From the NCBI RefSeq assembly GCF_003309065.1, contig NZ_POAF01000007.1, positions 186,001 through 250,000 of the forward strand: DNA of 64,000 nucleotides, in the 5' to 3' direction. The notes below the pieces were generated by a model. It did not search any database, was not told where the DNA came from, and worked only from the letters and a program-made list of their open reading frames with translations. This document shows positions 11,459-56,760 of this stretch, in pieces. Both the position numbers and the translations under genes were made by a program. This DNA is from Glutamicibacter soli. Lineage in GTDB: Bacteria; Actinomycetota; Actinomycetes; Actinomycetales; Micrococcaceae. Numbering within the stretch: position 1 is the stretch's first letter; each line of letters starts with the position of its first letter.

Positions 11459-14400
11459 CTACCGGCGGCCGGTCGGGCGGCGTAGTCGCAGCGCAGCAGC
11501 TCCAGCGGCGGTCAGAACCAGAGCACCTAGCACGGTCCACACCACGGAGGCTCCTGTCGCGGCCAGAGAGTCGCGCTCATCTGCCCCGCCCTCGGGTTCC
11601 TGTCCGGAGTCCTGCTCTCCGTTCTGAGTTCCTTCCACGGCGTTTCCCGAAGGATCGGCGGATGGATCCGCCGACGGTTCTTGGGACGGCCGTTGCTCTT
11701 CATCCGGCGCCGGGTCTCCGGACTCCGGAACGGCGGGATGGGTCGGCGACGGCTGCTCCAGGTCCGGTACGTCGGCGCCATCCTCGTCCATGCCGCTGCC
11801 CTGGCCGTCGTCAGAATTCTCCGGTTGCTCCGGAGCCGGCGAGCCTTCCACGACCACCGCACGCGAAGCAATGGCCTGGTTGCCGTTGGCATCTTGGACT
11901 GTGTAGGTCAGCGCATAGCTGCCCGGCGCGCCCGTATCCACAGATCCGACTATTTCGATATTCTCCGTGACATCGCCATCCGTGTTGTCCACGGCGCTCA
12001 CGGAGTCCATCGGGTCGAACGCATCTCCCACTGCGAGCGTGGTTCCTTCCGGGATGGTCAGCTCCGGAGCGACGGTGTCGGTACCTGCCGCAGAGGCTGT
12101 GAACACACCCGTCTGGCGCACCTGCCCCGGAGCCAGATCCTGTTGAGTCTGCGCATCGACGCTGGTGACGTACCAGGAGTAAACCTCTCCCTCGGTGAGC
12201 CCCGCCCAGACGACCGACGCCGGCCAGCCGGAACGCGCCGTCGCTTCACCGATCACCTCGCCCGTGGGCGCCAAGGACATGACGGCATCGGTGCTGAAGC
12301 TGGTCTGGCGCGTTTGCAACTGGATCGGCAGGCGAAGCTCGTCCTCGGTGCCGTCGTAGCGGTTTTCATCGTCGTATTCGGTGGCACCGAAATCGCCGAG
12401 CATCGGCGAGTAGGTGTCGATTGCCAGCTCGGAGCGCTCGACGTCGAACTGGAGCATACGCAGGTAGCTGGAGCCGAAACGCAGCATGTCCTGCGGGTTG
12501 CGCCCGTCGATGCCCGCGAGGCCGAGCTGTTCGGCGCCGACTTCGTAGAACTGGTAATCGGCGAGCAACTCGACGACGTTGTTCTGAGCCTGCCCCACGT
12601 CCTTGCGAACCTGGATGCTCACGCCATGCTCGTGGCCGGAAAGCACCAGGAAGATGTTCTTGTTCTTCTCCAGGATTCCTTCGGAGATGCGCTTGCCGTC
12701 GTGCGAGTAAGCGGCGCCTCGCCCGTCGGCGTTGATGCTCGGTTTGTTGTAGGCGTGGGTCATGAGCATCGCATTGCGGTCCGGGTACTGCGCAAGCACG
12801 TCGTTGGCCCAGGCGATTTCCGCCTCGGTCACATCAAAGCCCAGGTACAGGGCGATGAAGTCCAACCCTCCGGCACTGAACAGGTCGTAGTGGTTGTCGT
12901 TATCACCAGGTGCCCAGGACTGGTAGCTGGCCTGCGCCTGCTTCCACCCTTGGCTGTTTTCCAAGGACTCGTAGCGTTCCGGACCGAAGTACTGGTTGTA
13001 CAAGTTGTCCGGGCCGACATCCTTGCCCGATCGATTGTCATGGTTGCCCGGCAGTACGCCGTTGGGTATGCCGGTCTCGTCCAGTATCCGCTGCGTTTCG
13101 GAGGTGAACTCGAATTCGCGTTCGGCGATCCGGCGCTGCGTTTCTTCGTCGGCGTAGACGTCCTTATGCCAGTTCTCCACGATGTCGCCGGTATGGGCGA
13201 CGTATTCGATCTTCCGCTGTTCGGCATTTTCGGCGATCCAGCGCGGAATCGCGTTGTAGGCTTCGGCCCAGACCTTCTGCTGTTCCGCCGAGTACTCCTG
13301 CTCTACTGCGCCTTCGGCCAGGTACTGGGTGTCGGTGAAATGCACCATGGAGAAGTCGTAGCCGTCGGGGTCTTCGAATTCTCCGCGCACCGGCTCATCG
13401 AGGTCGTCGGCAAACGGATCGTGGGCCGTGACCAGCAGTTGCGCCTTGCCGTCCGCTACGTGCTCGGCGGAGATCCCTCCGTCCAAGGTCAACAGGCCAT
13501 CGCTGACACCGCGGCCGCTGGCCACCAGGTCCCAGGCCGAGTTCTGCTGGTTCCAGACGCGCAATTGCGCTTCGCGCTGCGGGTCAAGCTGCCCGCTCCA
13601 GCGCACGCTCTGCTCCGCCGCCTTCGCATCGGCTGCCACAGCGAAACGCTGGTATGGAATCGAGCCTTCGCTGGTCGCTTCGCTGGAGAAGAGTGATTCA
13701 TCTCCGGGAAGAAGCGCTTCCTCGATGCTTTGCGTCCGAGACTTGTCCCCGGCAGCGAAGTCCAGCGTCTCCGGCAGCTGCGAGATGACCCCGGAGGTGC
13801 CGCCCTTGGCGATGCTCGTTTCGCCGGCGTAGAAAGTGGAATGCACATCGCCGCCGTCGGGATTGGTGGCGTTGGCCGACAAGGTCACAGTGCCCTTGCC
13901 TTGACCGGTCTGAGTGCCGTTGCCTTCGGGGATGCTTCCGGAGGTGAATTCGATCTGCTGCGAGATGCCACGGCCGAACACATCGGTTCCTGAAGCCTCA
14001 ATGAGGTGTTTGCCTTCAGTCATTCCGGCAATCGGATCGCCGGGTTCAATCGGCTCTCCATCCAGCGTGTATTCCACGTTCGCGCCAACCAGATCCTGGA
14101 TGTTCCATTCAACCTGGAATTCCGAGGCCTTGGTGATGTTGGAGCCGGCAGCCGGAGTGCTGGACTCGATCCCTGCAGCCAGACCCTTTGAGTGGCCGAG
14201 CGCTTGCGCATTCAGCGAAGCGATATGCGGCGGCGCCAACGGCTGGCTATAGATGCGGGCTGCAGCAATCTTCGACTTGCCGTGGAACTGCACGTTGCCA
14301 TTGGATGAATCGGCGCCCAGCACGAAGTTGTGCGCTTCGGGTTTCGGCGGCCAGGTGACGGTGGAACCGCTGGCTTCCTGGGCCGCGACGAGCTTTCCGT

Positions 14401-28593: not shown

Positions 28594-28854
28594 CTAGTCA
28601 GTCTCGCCGGCGGGCGGCCGGGAAGCCGGGGCGGCGAGCAGGTTGGCAAGCCGGGCGGCTGCGGCATGATCGCTGGCCGAGGCCTTCTGGTTCTCCTCGA
28701 TCACTGCGGCCAGGACTTCGGCACGATGGATTTTCACACCCTTGGGCGCGTCAATTCCTACCTTGATCGAATCGCCTTTCGACTCAAGGATCGTCACTAC
28801 GATGCCCTCGCCGATCAGGACCTGTTCTCCGACTTTCCGAGTGAGTACCAGCAC
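28594..28854 (-). CDS. csrA: Carbon storage regulator CsrA
   Basis: RNA-binding translational regulator. The 86-residue product has the whole CsrA core in residues 1-60: MLVLTRKVGEQVLIGEGI, VTILESKGDSIKVGIDAPKGV and KIHRAEVL, including the RNA-contact Arg/Leu residues of β1 and β5. A ~25-residue Ala/Pro tail follows, longer than in E. coli CsrA (61). It is the last gene of the leftward flagellar block, 48 bases after the FlhF-like gene. Its likely antagonist fliW is at the far end of the locus, and candidate binding sites lie in the fliC leader. CsrA is uncommon in actinobacteria and tied to flagella. Confidence 0.95.
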   Translation of the reverse strand: MLVLTRKVGEQVLIGEGIVVTILESKGDSIKVGIDAPKGVKIHRAEVLAAVIEENQKASASDHAAAARLANLLAAPASRPPAGETD

Positions 28855-51534: not shown

Positions 51535-52401
51535 TTAGCCCAGCAGCTTCAGGACGCCCTGGTTGGACTGGTTGGCCTGAGCGAGCATGGCGGTACCAGC
51601 CTGGGACAGGATGTTCGAGCGGGTGAAGTTCACCATCTCGCCGGCCATGTCCACGTCGCGGATGCGGGACTCGGCGGCCTGCAGGTTTTCGCGCGACACG
51701 TTCAGCGAGTTGATCGCCGATTCAAAGCGGTTCTGCACTGCGCCCAAGGCCGCGCGGCCACTGGACACGCTGGTGATGGCGGTATCGACGGTGCCGATGG
51801 TCGCTGCCGCAACCGAGGCCGACGCGAACCCGTCGGTGGTCACGATCGCGGCCTTCAAATCGGTGGCCAGGGTCTTGATGTCGATGCCGCCCTGGCTCAG
51901 ATCCAGCGAGATCTGGCTGTCGCCGCCGGTGCCGGCGCCGATCTGGAAGGACATGACGCCGTTGCCGGTTGAGCCGGCAGTGGCATCAAGCAGGTTGATG
52001 CCGTTGAAGTTGGTCGTGTCGCCGATGCGTCCCAATTCGTCGACCAGGGCGGTGACTTCGGTAGTGATGGCCTTGCGGGATTCCGCATTGTTCGAGTCGT
52101 TGCCGGCCTGTACTGCCAGATCGCGCACACGCTGCAGGATCGAGTGGACCTCGGTCAGCGCGCCTTCAGCGGTCTGGATGACAGAGATGCCGTCCTGGGC
52201 ATTGCGGGCGGCAACGTTCAGGCCGTTGACCTGCGAACGCAGGCCTTCGGAGATGGCAAGTCCGGCGGCGTCGTCTGCCGCGCGGTTGATGCGCAGGCCC
52301 GAGGACAGCTTTTCCAGCGACTTCGACAGGTCGTTCTGGGTGTTGGACAGGTTGCGGTGAGCATTCAGCGCCGCGAGGTTGGTGTTGATCTGCATACCCA
52401 T
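51535..52401 (-). CDS. fliC: Flagellin
   Basis: Filament subunit of 288 residues. The N-terminal D0/D1 region MQINTNLAALNAHRNLSNTQ, LEKLSSGLRINRAADDAAGLAISE and the C-terminal FESAINSLNVSRENLQAAESRIRDVDMAGEM, NILSQAGTAMLAQANQ are classic (in pieces). Only ~85 residues lie between, so D2/D3 are essentially missing: a short flagellin. ATG 52401 has GGAGGAAAACATC upstream; a second ATG two codons in is possible. It has its own sigma-28-type promoter and a leader with CsrA-like sites. Confidence 0.97.
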   Translation of the reverse strand: MGMQINTNLAALNAHRNLSNTQNDLSKSLEKLSSGLRINRAADDAAGLAISEGLRSQVNGLNVAARNAQDGISVIQTAEGALTEVHSILQRVRDLAVQAGNDSNNAESRKAITTEVTALVDELGRIGDTTNFNGINLLDATAGSTGNGVMSFQIGAGTGGDSQISLDLSQGGIDIKTLATDLKAAIVTTDGFASASVAAATIGTVDTAITSVSSGRAALGAVQNRFESAINSLNVSRENLQAAESRIRDVDMAGEMVNFTRSNILSQAGTAMLAQANQSNQGVLKLLG

Positions 52402-52409
52402 GATGTTTT

Positions 52410-52455
52410 CCTCCGTGAGAACGGGTGTTGTTTACCTAGGTCCGTCCATGGACCT
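52410..52455 (-). promoter_or_regulatory. Putative CsrA-binding sites in the fliC leader
   Basis: On the fliC (minus) strand AGGTCC-ATGGAC-GGACCT (52455-52438) forms a 6-bp hairpin with a hexaloop containing ANGGA. ACGGAGG (52416-52410) is a second ANGGA overlapping the Shine-Dalgarno. One hairpin site plus one site on the ribosome-binding site is the CsrA repression layout known for Bacillus hag. Confidence 0.6.
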
Positions 52456-52464
52456 CGTGAACAA

Positions 52465-52491
52465 CTATCGGCCGTACTCCGCGAGCGGTTA
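52465..52491 (-). promoter_or_regulatory. Sigma-28-type promoter of fliC
   Basis: On the minus strand TAAC (52491-52488), a 15-base spacer, then GCCGATAG (52472-52465): 10 of 12 bases match E. coli FliA consensus TAAA-N15-GCCGATAA. It lies 23 bases beyond the sigma-factor stop. Confidence 0.8.
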
Positions 52492-52514: not shown

Positions 52515-53333
52515 TCACGCAATATCCGCTGTCATCGGCGGACCGGTCCAGTCGTCCAAGCGTCCGCCTGTTGCCTGGCGGGCAAACTCGTCGAGGTAGC
52601 TGTCGCGCCGCGCCTGGGCGGACTTCGTGAGCTTGGGCTGCACGACGGGCGGCCGGTCGGTGAGGTAATGCGTCTGGATGGCTTCGTGCAGCAGCTTGAG
52701 GGCGACGGTGCGCTGCTGCGAAATTGCCGAATGCGTCACGCCCGCCTCGGCAGCAATCTGCTTGACCGTGGCGCCTTCGAAAAAGAGTCGGCGGATCAGG
52801 ATCTGGAGTTTCTGGGGCAGGCACTGCACGGCCGCATGGATCACGCTGATGCGTTCGCGGTGCAGGATGTTTTCCTCCGGGATTCCCATCTCGGACAGGA
52901 GGCTGTCATGCATGGTTTCCTCCAGCGCCACCACGCTGCGCTCGGCATCGGCCATCACCGCGCGCACGTCCGCGCTGCTCACGCCCATGGCGTCGGCCAA
53001 CTCATGCTCCGATGGCTGGCGTCCCAGAACACCGGTCAAGGCTTCCTGGACGTTGCGGGTTGCAGTGATTTTCTGGCGCGCCCCACGGGTCGCCCAATCG
53101 TTCGAACGCATATCGTCGGCAAAGGCACCCATGATCCGGCGGCGGGCGAAGGCGCCGAAAGGCACTCCACGGGAGGGGTCGAATGATTCGGCAGCGCTGA
53201 TCATCGCGATGGTGCCGATGGAGACGAGATCTTCGCGCGAAAGATGCGTCGCTTTCGAGCAAAGTTCAGCTGCTAGATATCCGACAAGGGGGAGGTTTGC
53301 CAAAACCAATTCATTGCGTGCTTCAAGCTCCAC
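52515..53333 (-). CDS. FliA/WhiG-type flagellar sigma factor (sigma-28)
   Basis: A 272-residue group 3 sigma factor. Region 2: NLPLVGYLAAELCSKATHLSREDLVSIGTIAMISAAESFDPSRGVPFGAFARRRIMGAFADDMR, of which LVGYLA, EDLVSIG and FDPSRGVPFGAFA are the key parts. Region 3: LTGVLGRQPSEHELADAMGV. Region 4 HTH: LPQKLQILIRRLFFEGATVKQIAAEAGVTHSAISQ (key part VKQIAAEAGVTHSAISQ). A ~45-residue C-terminal extension is unusual. It lies between fliC and divergent flgN and should read the TAAC-N15-GCCGATA promoters. No flgM is nearby. Confidence 0.9.
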   Translation of the reverse strand: MELEARNELVLANLPLVGYLAAELCSKATHLSREDLVSIGTIAMISAAESFDPSRGVPFGAFARRRIMGAFADDMRSNDWATRGARQKITATRNVQEALTGVLGRQPSEHELADAMGVSSADVRAVMADAERSVVALEETMHDSLLSEMGIPEENILHRERISVIHAAVQCLPQKLQILIRRLFFEGATVKQIAAEAGVTHSAISQQRTVALKLLHEAIQTHYLTDRPPVVQPKLTKSAQARRDSYLDEFARQATGGRLDDWTGPPMTADIA

Positions 53334-55513: not shown

Positions 55514-56389
55514 ATGACACGCATTACCACGTCGGCGCTCAGCTTCAATGCCGAACGCAACCTCGCCGCCGCGGCCGCCCGGCTGGCCACGATCCAGGAC
55601 AAGATCGGCTCCAACAAACAGATCAGCCGGCCCAGCGACGACCCGGCGGGGGCCGCCGAGGCGATGGCGGTTCGCACCGAGCAGCGCCAGAACGCGCAGT
55701 TTTCCCGGAACGCAGCGGATGCCAATGGCTGGCTGTCTTCCACGGACGTCGCCTTGTCCGCCGCGACCAGCCTGCTTCACCGGGTGCGCGACCTGACCGC
55801 CCAAGGAGCCAACGACGGAGCGCTCGGACCGGAGGCCCGGGAAGCGATCGCCCTTGAACTCGACCAATTGCGTGAGCAGATGGTCGGGGTGGCCAACACC
55901 CAGTACCGCGGGCGCTTCTTGTTTGCCGGCACCTCGGATGCCGGCAGCGCGCTGGATGAGAACCTGCAGTTCTCCCAGGGCAGCGAGGTCCTGCGCCGGA
56001 TCGGGCCGAATTCCTCGGTGCGCGTGGACGCCGACGGCGCTGCCGCCTTCGGCCAAGGCCCGGACAGCGTCTTCAGCCTCATCTCCTCCATCGCGCAGGA
56101 TTTGCGCAATGGCGTCAATGTGTCCTCACGACTTGAAACGGTGGATGCCCACTTGCAGAACATCCTTGCCACCCAGGCCTCCGTCGGCGCCAGCCACGCC
56201 ACGGTGCGCACGGCCGAGCAGAGCCTGCTGGGCGATGCAGTCAACCTCGAGGCCCGGCGCGCGGGCACCGAGGACATCGACCTCGCCACCGCCATCCTGG
56301 AGCTCAAGAGCCAAGAGGTCGCCTACCAGGCGGCGCTGTCCGCCGCGGCCCGCACCCTGCAGCCTTCACTCATGGACTTCCTGCGATGA
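55514..56389 (+). CDS. flgL: Flagellar hook-associated protein FlgL (HAP3)
   Basis: A 291-residue flagellin-like junction protein. N-terminus RLATIQDKIGSNKQISRPSDDPAGAAEAM (the KxISxPSDDP motif of FlgL), then VALSAATSLLHRVRDLTAQGAND and GVANTQYRGRFLFAGT. The C-terminus LATAILELKSQEVAYQAALSAAARTLQPSLMDFL is standard; both are quoted in part. It overlaps fliW as ATGA. Confidence 0.95.
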   Translation: MTRITTSALSFNAERNLAAAAARLATIQDKIGSNKQISRPSDDPAGAAEAMAVRTEQRQNAQFSRNAADANGWLSSTDVALSAATSLLHRVRDLTAQGANDGALGPEAREAIALELDQLREQMVGVANTQYRGRFLFAGTSDAGSALDENLQFSQGSEVLRRIGPNSSVRVDADGAAAFGQGPDSVFSLISSIAQDLRNGVNVSSRLETVDAHLQNILATQASVGASHATVRTAEQSLLGDAVNLEARRAGTEDIDLATAILELKSQEVAYQAALSAAARTLQPSLMDFLR

Positions 56390-56760
56390 GCCGCAAACTG
56401 ATCCCGTCCTCCGCCCTGCCCGGATTCCCGCAGGCGCAAACGCTGGAGCTTTGTGCTGTCGACGGCGCCCCGGGCCTCTTTGCGCTGTCATCCCCCGAGG
56501 CGCCATCATTGCGCTGGTTCGTCCTCGAGACCGCAGTGCACCTGCCGCACTACACACCGCAGTTCTCCGAAGACCACCTGGCGGCGGTCGGCCGGCCGGC
56601 GCAGAACGCGCGATTGGTCCTTGCCGTGGTCAACACCGCCGACCAGCGACCCAGCGCCAACCTCTTCGCGCCGCTCTTGGTCAACGACGACACCGGGCAG
56701 TGCTCCCAGGTCCTGCTTGAATCGCAGGATTGGCCTTTGCGCCATGACCTGAGCGCCTAA
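56386..56760 (+). CDS. fliW: Flagellar assembly factor FliW
   Basis: A 124-residue protein matching FliW along its length: ALPGFPQAQTLELCAV, LRWFVLETAVHLPHYTPQFSEDHLAAVG, LVLAVVNTADQRPSANLFAPLLVN and QVLLESQDWPLRHDL (in pieces), the last corresponding to the family's SxRHPL ending. FliW binds flagellin and, when free, antagonises CsrA; the interaction network is from Bacillus. It is the last gene of flgN-flgK-flgL-fliW, coupled to flgL, and a good intrinsic terminator follows. csrA is 28 kb away at the other end of the locus. Confidence 0.9.
   Translation: MSRKLIPSSALPGFPQAQTLELCAVDGAPGLFALSSPEAPSLRWFVLETAVHLPHYTPQFSEDHLAAVGRPAQNARLVLAVVNTADQRPSANLFAPLLVNDDTGQCSQVLLESQDWPLRHDLSA

Follow-up and report, generated by a model that had tools for sequence, protein, structure and literature searches.

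A covarying hairpin and a Shine-Dalgarno motif in the fliC leader of Glutamicibacter soli as a predicted two-site CsrA operator

The flagellin locus of Glutamicibacter soli raises the question of whether the short leader of fliC serves as an RNA operator for CsrA, with FliW and flagellin itself as the other members of the switch. The whole stretch of DNA that was analysed (64,000 nt, hereafter the window) contains the candidate regulated gene fliC (flagellin, 288 aa; 51535..52401, minus strand; PF00669 167.5 bits, PF00700 103.9 bits), and its 5′ leader was taken from the end of the -10 element to the base preceding the ATG (52402..52464, minus strand), the transcription start being predicted from the promoter. 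The promoter, TAAC-N15-GCCGATAG (52465..52491, minus strand), resembles the general sigma-28 consensus and is taken as sigma-28-like; among related loci, CGATAG predominates at the corresponding place. A sigma factor gene nearest the FliA/WhiG family (52515..53333, minus strand; TIGR02479 133 bits, below the curated cut-off of 189.6) likely encodes the factor that reads this promoter.

A preliminary description of the window had reported a hairpin with a 6-bp stem and the hexaloop ATGGAC in the fliC leader and a second ANGGA on the Shine-Dalgarno (SD) sequence, and both were found as described. The predicted CsrA-site hairpin, AGGUCC-AUGGAC-GGACCU (52438..52455, minus strand; 56.6 bits with the covariance model R1 described below, with compensatory stem changes in relatives), consists of the arm AGGTCC (52455-52450, minus strand), the loop ATGGAC, a hexaloop holding ANGGA (52449-52444, minus strand), and the arm GGACCT (52443-52438, minus strand). 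The second predicted CsrA site, ACGGA (52412..52416, minus strand; conserved as ANGGA/AYGGAGG in relatives), lies inside the SD sequence ACGGAGG, the A of which is 33 nt downstream of the loop A; the loop A is itself 48 nt upstream of the fliC ATG (52401). The 6-bp stem starts 9 nt past the end of the sigma-28-like promoter, which puts the hairpin close to the beginning of the predicted message, just after the predicted start, as had been noted. No match to the leader was obtained in Rfam at gathering thresholds.

Taken alone, the hairpin is only mildly unusual. The window has two perfect 6-bp stems that enclose an ANGGAN loop, one in the fliC leader and one at 11662 on the plus strand, as against a mean of 0.23 and a maximum of 2 in 60 shuffled windows. 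The plus-strand hairpin (CGGCGG-ATGGAT-CCGCCG, 11656-11673), a second perfect 6-bp stem with an ANGGA hexaloop, may be due to chance. The fold energy of the fliC leader was ordinary (z -1.10; 28 of 200 shuffles as good). Genome-wide, the 10-nt core CCAYGGAHGG occurred at chance (91 sites versus 94 for the reversed pattern), and for that reason no CsrA regulon is claimed. The layout conserved as a whole in one place, not the fold energy or the core alone, is what we take as the deciding sequence evidence.

Conservation was examined in the window and the best 80 of 578 related flagellin loci, mostly Micrococcales by name. In this sample the core CCAYGGAHGG was present in 80 of the 81 leaders, the sole exception being L018, in which the second stem pair is A-G, and the spacing from the loop to the SD site was 26-35 nt in 77 of the 81. 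Covariation was tested on 63 of the 81 leaders over nine stem pairs with 500 shuffles, a control that breaks the relatedness among the leaders. Standard pairing was kept in 88.9% of the stem cells of the 63 leaders as against 69.3% after shuffling, and the covariation score was 0.498 as against 0.162; for both measures 0 of the 500 shuffles were as high. The preliminary description had named uncompensated stem changes in relatives as the finding adverse to its reading, and the reading passed, with 103 cells changed on both sides with pairing kept, compared with 33.5 in the shuffles (0 of 500 as high), around a loop that stayed constant as AYGGA(U/C/A) while the stem arms varied. Two further measures gave smaller differences: both-side changes were seen in seven of the nine pairs (shuffled mean 5.3; 21 of 500 shuffles reached 7), and 24 further pair types were counted (20.1 in shuffles; 11 of 500 reached 24). 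When the stem partners were slid by 1-3 columns, a control that keeps the relatedness but favours a structure read from the same sequences, 26-44% of cells were paired. RNAalifold, unprompted, returned the inner seven pairs of the same helix, five of them changed on both sides. Pairing was non-standard in 8 to 17 of the 63 rows for six of the nine pairs, namely in nine rows for pair 3, in 17 for pair 5, and in 8 to 10 each for the outer pairs 6 to 9.

The same pattern bears on a different interpretation, in which the inverted repeat is a DNA operator bound by a dimeric transcription factor immediately past the fliC promoter. The distance of the repeat from the promoter varies rather little and its 10 central positions are nearly invariant, both of which would suit such a protein; an operator, however, should keep its arms and free its spacer, and the leaders do the opposite, with arms that vary while pairing is kept and an asymmetric spacer that is constant. 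On that ground this interpretation, which also leaves the SD motif unexplained, was rejected and is regarded as very improbable. A conserved paired structure in RNA, presenting a near-invariant loop, accounts for the pattern.

For the second site, an ANGGA was located at most 22 nt from the start codon in 81 of the 81 leaders (the window and the best 80 of 578 loci), and the longer form AYGGAGG was found near the start in 74 of the 80 related fliC genes (best 80 of 578). A site on the SD sequence in all 81 leaders is the layout of steric repression, and this weighs against the idea that CsrA does bind the leader but acts chiefly on mRNA stability or on the place of translation instead of on ribosome access. 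That idea draws on the report, as excerpted, that CsrA of B. subtilis also limits the level of the hag transcript (PMC6529632), and on the control of polar localisation of flaA mRNA by the C. jejuni network in the cited portion of PMC4894983; as an account of the main effect here we consider it a slim prospect. The arrangement of both sites points to an operator at which access of the ribosome would be controlled.

Some leaders in the sample depart from the single-hairpin form or come from unexpected sources. Two tandem GGA-loop hairpins precede the SD site in the fliC leaders of Microbacterium arborescens and two other Microbacterium (L049, L057 and L064). In Cryobacterium melibiosiphilum (L029, 7341-7738), a second fliC-type leader was found before a 110-aa open reading frame 0.6 kb upstream of fliC. 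The product of this frame starts with MGMQLNNNIS, and over 56 residues its C-terminal half shares 46% identity with the C-terminal end of flagellin, with a PF00700 score of 19.9 bits, below the cut-off; the sequence suggests a mini flagellin or a decayed duplicate with its CsrA-type leader retained. One contig labelled Patulibacter (L072) carries a leader and flagellin like those of Curtobacterium and is probably a metagenome contamination.

Specificity for the flagellin leader was assessed with the covariance model R1, which was built from the 63 leaders; the remaining 18 are the three with tandem hairpins and otherwise near relatives. In a search of the window and the 80 loci (1.31 Mb), 82 matches were obtained up to E = 1: each of the 81 sources contributed its fliC leader once, and the remaining match was the leader of the 110-aa frame in L029; since the same leaders built R1, the matches of the 63 are by construction. 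In the genome of G. soli the next match after fliC scored 16.9 bits and was rejected as chance at E = 1, in a search that scored 87 of 1488 first-look candidates and that weaker targets could therefore escape.

With a simple stem test (at least six pairs), a hairpin was detected in 76 of 80 fliC leaders and in none of the leaders of fliD (0/75), flgN (0/68), flgK (0/66) and fliW (0/62). The test was also positive for flgL (14/79) and for the sigma gene (9/68). The flgL count is inflated because tblastn landed on the paralogue fliC, and all 12 flgL rows listed on the second scoring were rejected as the fliC leader itself. The sigma-gene matches were mostly from Curtobacterium, and strong GGA-loop hairpins lie approximately 100-110 nt before the predicted start of a FliA/WhiG-like sigma gene in L034, L035, L038, L044, L046, L048, L053 and L072; these hairpins, nearly all from Curtobacterium, could be either a second CsrA target or a terminator.

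A plain ANGGA near the start codon is unspecific and common in other flagellar genes, being present in 80/80 fliC, 31/75 fliD, 9/68 sigma, 15/68 flgN, 23/66 flgK, 23/79 flgL and 47/62 fliW genes. The form AYGGAGG at the start is specific to fliC, with 74/80 as against 1/75 for fliD, 1/68 for flgN, 5/66 for flgK, 0/62 for fliW, 0/68 for the sigma gene, and 13/79 for flgL, the last figure including cross-matches to fliC. At the fliW start, the ANGGA of the 47 loci stands without a strong SD sequence; it may be explained by coding constraint from flgL, which fliW overlaps in the window, or may alternatively be a CsrA site.

The two protein partners were sought in the window, where the preliminary description had placed csrA at 28594 and fliW at 56386, and profile searches bore this out for both. 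The csrA gene (86 aa; 28594..28854, minus strand) was identified by TIGR00202 at 81.4 bits (cut-off 70.1) and is the only CsrA match in the genome. Identical contig coordinates of csrA in G593 and G724 of the same family, and in G433 and G415, which contain the loci L063 and L027, indicate that this genome shares its family with Pseudarthrobacter and Arthrobacter. The fliW gene (124 aa; 56386..56760, plus strand), which overlaps the end of flgL by 4 nt, was identified by PF02623 at about 60 bits (59.9-60.6; cut-off 25); its score is the second lowest of the 58 FliW found in the sample, and the best PDB match of its product is the FliW of the CsrA-FliW complex 5dmb (E 2.9e-4). The CsrA of the window carries the RNA-contact residues L4, which we presume to have this role, and R44, as well as the FliW-contact residues V51 and N55 in a protein with an extended C-terminus (86 aa). 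In the cited portion of PMC7829508, V51 and N55 are given as FliW contacts and R44 as an RNA contact, and FliW binding is stated to need N55 of CsrA in Campylobacter and Bacillus.

Co-occurrence of the partners with flagellin was examined in a phylum sample of 396 genomes, 60 of which gave a Flagellin_N match (in a few, only a FlgL-like one). These 60 contained csrA in 59 and fliW in 58. Among the 336 genomes without a Flagellin_N match, csrA was present in 21 (one below the family cut-off), two of which had fliW. The gene was also found in 48 of 48 examined genomes carrying the leader and, within the order, in 79 of 80 genomes with flagellin, and no flagellated genome clearly lacking csrA was found in the phylum sample, the 48 leader-carrying genomes or the 80 of the order. 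Of the two exceptions, G186 owes its place to one Flagellin_N match of 95.8 bits that lies near fliW and is probably FlgL, and G553 is a draft of 580 contigs in which the leader is kept in all six flagellin copies.

This company of proteins is not expected if the hairpin only protects an abundant mRNA at its 5′ end, or responds to temperature, without CsrA taking part. Such a role would agree with the conserved pairing and with the position near the predicted 5′ end of the flagellin message, but it gives no reason for the loop to stay ANGGA or for AYGGAGG to stand on the SD sequence, and we give it very little probability.

The residues of CsrA were followed in genomes with and without flagellin. 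N55, L4 and R44 were carried by every one of the 51 flagellar CsrAs examined (51/51) and by both CsrAs (2/2) from flagellin-negative genomes with FliW. In CsrAs from genomes with neither flagellin nor FliW, N55 was found in 0 of 18, with L4 and R44 kept, and in second CsrA copies it was found in one of six, with L4 and R44 in all. The association of N55 with FliW is explained in part by shared descent; within one family (f23), N55 is kept in the FliW-bearing G075 and G333 and absent in the FliW-less G014 and G137. The N55-less class (18 of 18 genes) comprises L174-L178, L180-L190, L192 and L193. In L174 and L175 a GCS2 gene (glutamate-cysteine ligase family) stands no more than a few kb from the N55-less csrA, and in L175 an enolase gene is likewise that close; the scan covered ten neighbours, four with a Pfam match, from three of six fetched neighbourhoods.

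We lean slightly towards the view that Actinomycetota possess two functional classes of CsrA, one keeping N55, gated by FliW and acting on the flagellin leader, and the other lacking N55, in genomes without flagellin and FliW. If this is true, the flagellar class would act even where csrA sits tens of kilobases from fliW, the stoichiometry would be set without fliW-csrA coupling where csrA is displaced, and the N55-less CsrA, near metabolic genes in two neighbourhoods, would need another antagonist. The link between N55 and the presence of FliW offers a sequence mark for FliW-gated CsrA.

Displacement of csrA is seen in the window, where it lies 27.6 kb from fliW and two genes after flhA (PF00771 778 bits), so that the two genes are not adjacent. 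Among the 57 sampled genomes with both genes, fliW and csrA were no more than 1 kb apart in 47, 3 to 68 kb apart in eight, and on different contigs in two; in the six sampled genomes of the order, the distance was within 1 kb in one, 27-29 kb in four and 3 kb in one. Adjacency was treated as a common, not a defining, trait of the homeostasis module.

The reach of the leader was examined first within the order. Another 20 genomes of the order supplied 36 additional leaders, all distinct from the first 81; the core was present in 35 of them and an ANGGA near the start in 35. This set includes five tandem arrays of three to six flagellins (L220-L224), where the core and the start ANGGA preceded all 21 of 21 copies. 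Six genomes of the order were searched with R1, and in all six the best match fell on a flagellin leader, at E values from 1e-12 to 0.005; outside the order its matches were weaker than E = 0.005 and mostly away from flagellin genes.

For the phylum, 59 flagellin leaders were obtained from 51 of the 396 genomes. A GGA-loop hairpin at p ≤ 0.05 was detected in 25 of the 59 (about 3 expected) and an ANGGA near the start in 52. Five of the 59 leaders belong to the order, four of them at p ≤ 0.05, and outside the order the hairpin was detected in 21 of 54 leaders at p ≤ 0.05 (about 3 expected). In some distant leaders (L113, L114, L116, L091, L096 and L121) no clear GGA-loop hairpin was found and the start ANGGA was kept; these lineages may have lost the upstream site or may never have had it. 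The strict form of the leader is a trait of the order; other classes seem to have looser versions of it.

Together, the stem covariation, the co-occurrence of the partners and the RNA- and FliW-contact residues of CsrA support the CsrA-FliW-flagellin circuit proposed in the preliminary description. It is considered highly probable, on sequence evidence and by analogy with Bacillus and Campylobacter, that the fliC leader is a two-site CsrA RNA operator of such a switch. Following those two systems, from which binding, repression, antagonism and feedback are carried over, a CsrA dimer would occupy the GGA of the loop and the GGA of the SD sequence 33 nt downstream and so block ribosome binding; free FliW would lift the block by attaching to the CsrA surface around V51/N55; and FliW would in turn be bound by unexported flagellin, so that flagellin made faster than it is exported would shut off its own translation. 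The work on the leader yields a covariance model and the exact bases for testing, and in this order, with csrA standing apart from fliW, it can be tested whether the stoichiometry of the switch is set by gene coupling.

The closest comparison is with Bacillus subtilis, in which CsrA, FliW and the flagellin Hag are likewise all present (PMC7652899, PMC6529632, as excerpted). The hag leader, compared here through these papers, has two CsrA sites, as predicted for G. soli, one of them on the SD sequence; N55, which FliW binding needs in Bacillus (PMC7829508, in the cited portion), is shared, as probably is sigma-28-type transcription. A difference is that in Bacillus the gene architecture and translational coupling, taken here as that of fliW-csrA, are credited with the stoichiometry in the cited portions of PMC7652899 and PMC6529632; because csrA lies 27 kb from fliW in G. 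soli, such coupling does not apply here as such.

In Campylobacter jejuni the flaA leader is also short, with one ANGGA in an upstream hairpin loop and one on the ribosome site, and compensatory changes within the genus and FliW as antagonist are described in the same source, as excerpted (PMC4894983); antagonism is predicted in the present case. Both flaA sites lie in stem-loops and binding was shown in that work (PMC4894983, in the cited portion), whereas here binding is predicted; the RNAalifold consensus contained no conserved helix at the SD site of the actinobacterial leaders. Of the two CsrA sites predicted in the fliC leader of Clostridioides difficile, the second falls on the SD sequence, and that species has a FliC-FliW-CsrA partner switch (PMC11898703, as excerpted) like the one predicted here. 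In its reporter only the SD site was needed, according to the cited portion of PMC11898703, whereas the upstream hairpin is present in nearly all examined leaders of the order.

The circuit has been stated to be present in deeper bacterial branches (PMC6529632, as excerpted), Actinobacteria were listed in 2015 as possible FliW users in the cited part of PMC4682653, and a 2023 survey of actinobacterial flagella had CsrA and FliW among the proteins searched (PMC10746217, in the portion cited). The nearest precedent is Kineococcus radiotolerans, for the flagellin of which CsrA control was suggested in 2008 on the strength of a match to the hag SD site at 9 of 12 bases, with csrA beside flagellar genes and likewise after flhA (PMC2587704, as excerpted); the cited portion of that paper differs in containing no upstream hairpin and no covariation, and the word FliW is absent from its main text. 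The preliminary statement that CsrA control in actinobacteria is little described thus stands insofar as little was met in the literature searched, but the idea is not new, having been raised for Kineococcus in 2008 (PMC2587704, in the same portion). In that search, which covered few subscription papers, no paper was found that describes this hairpin in actinobacteria, its covariation or how widely it occurs there. What was a hint in 2008 is now an RNA element that is defined in sequence and supported by covariation in many flagellated actinobacteria: the circuit is already known, and what is new is the hairpin, its covariation and its breadth in this phylum.
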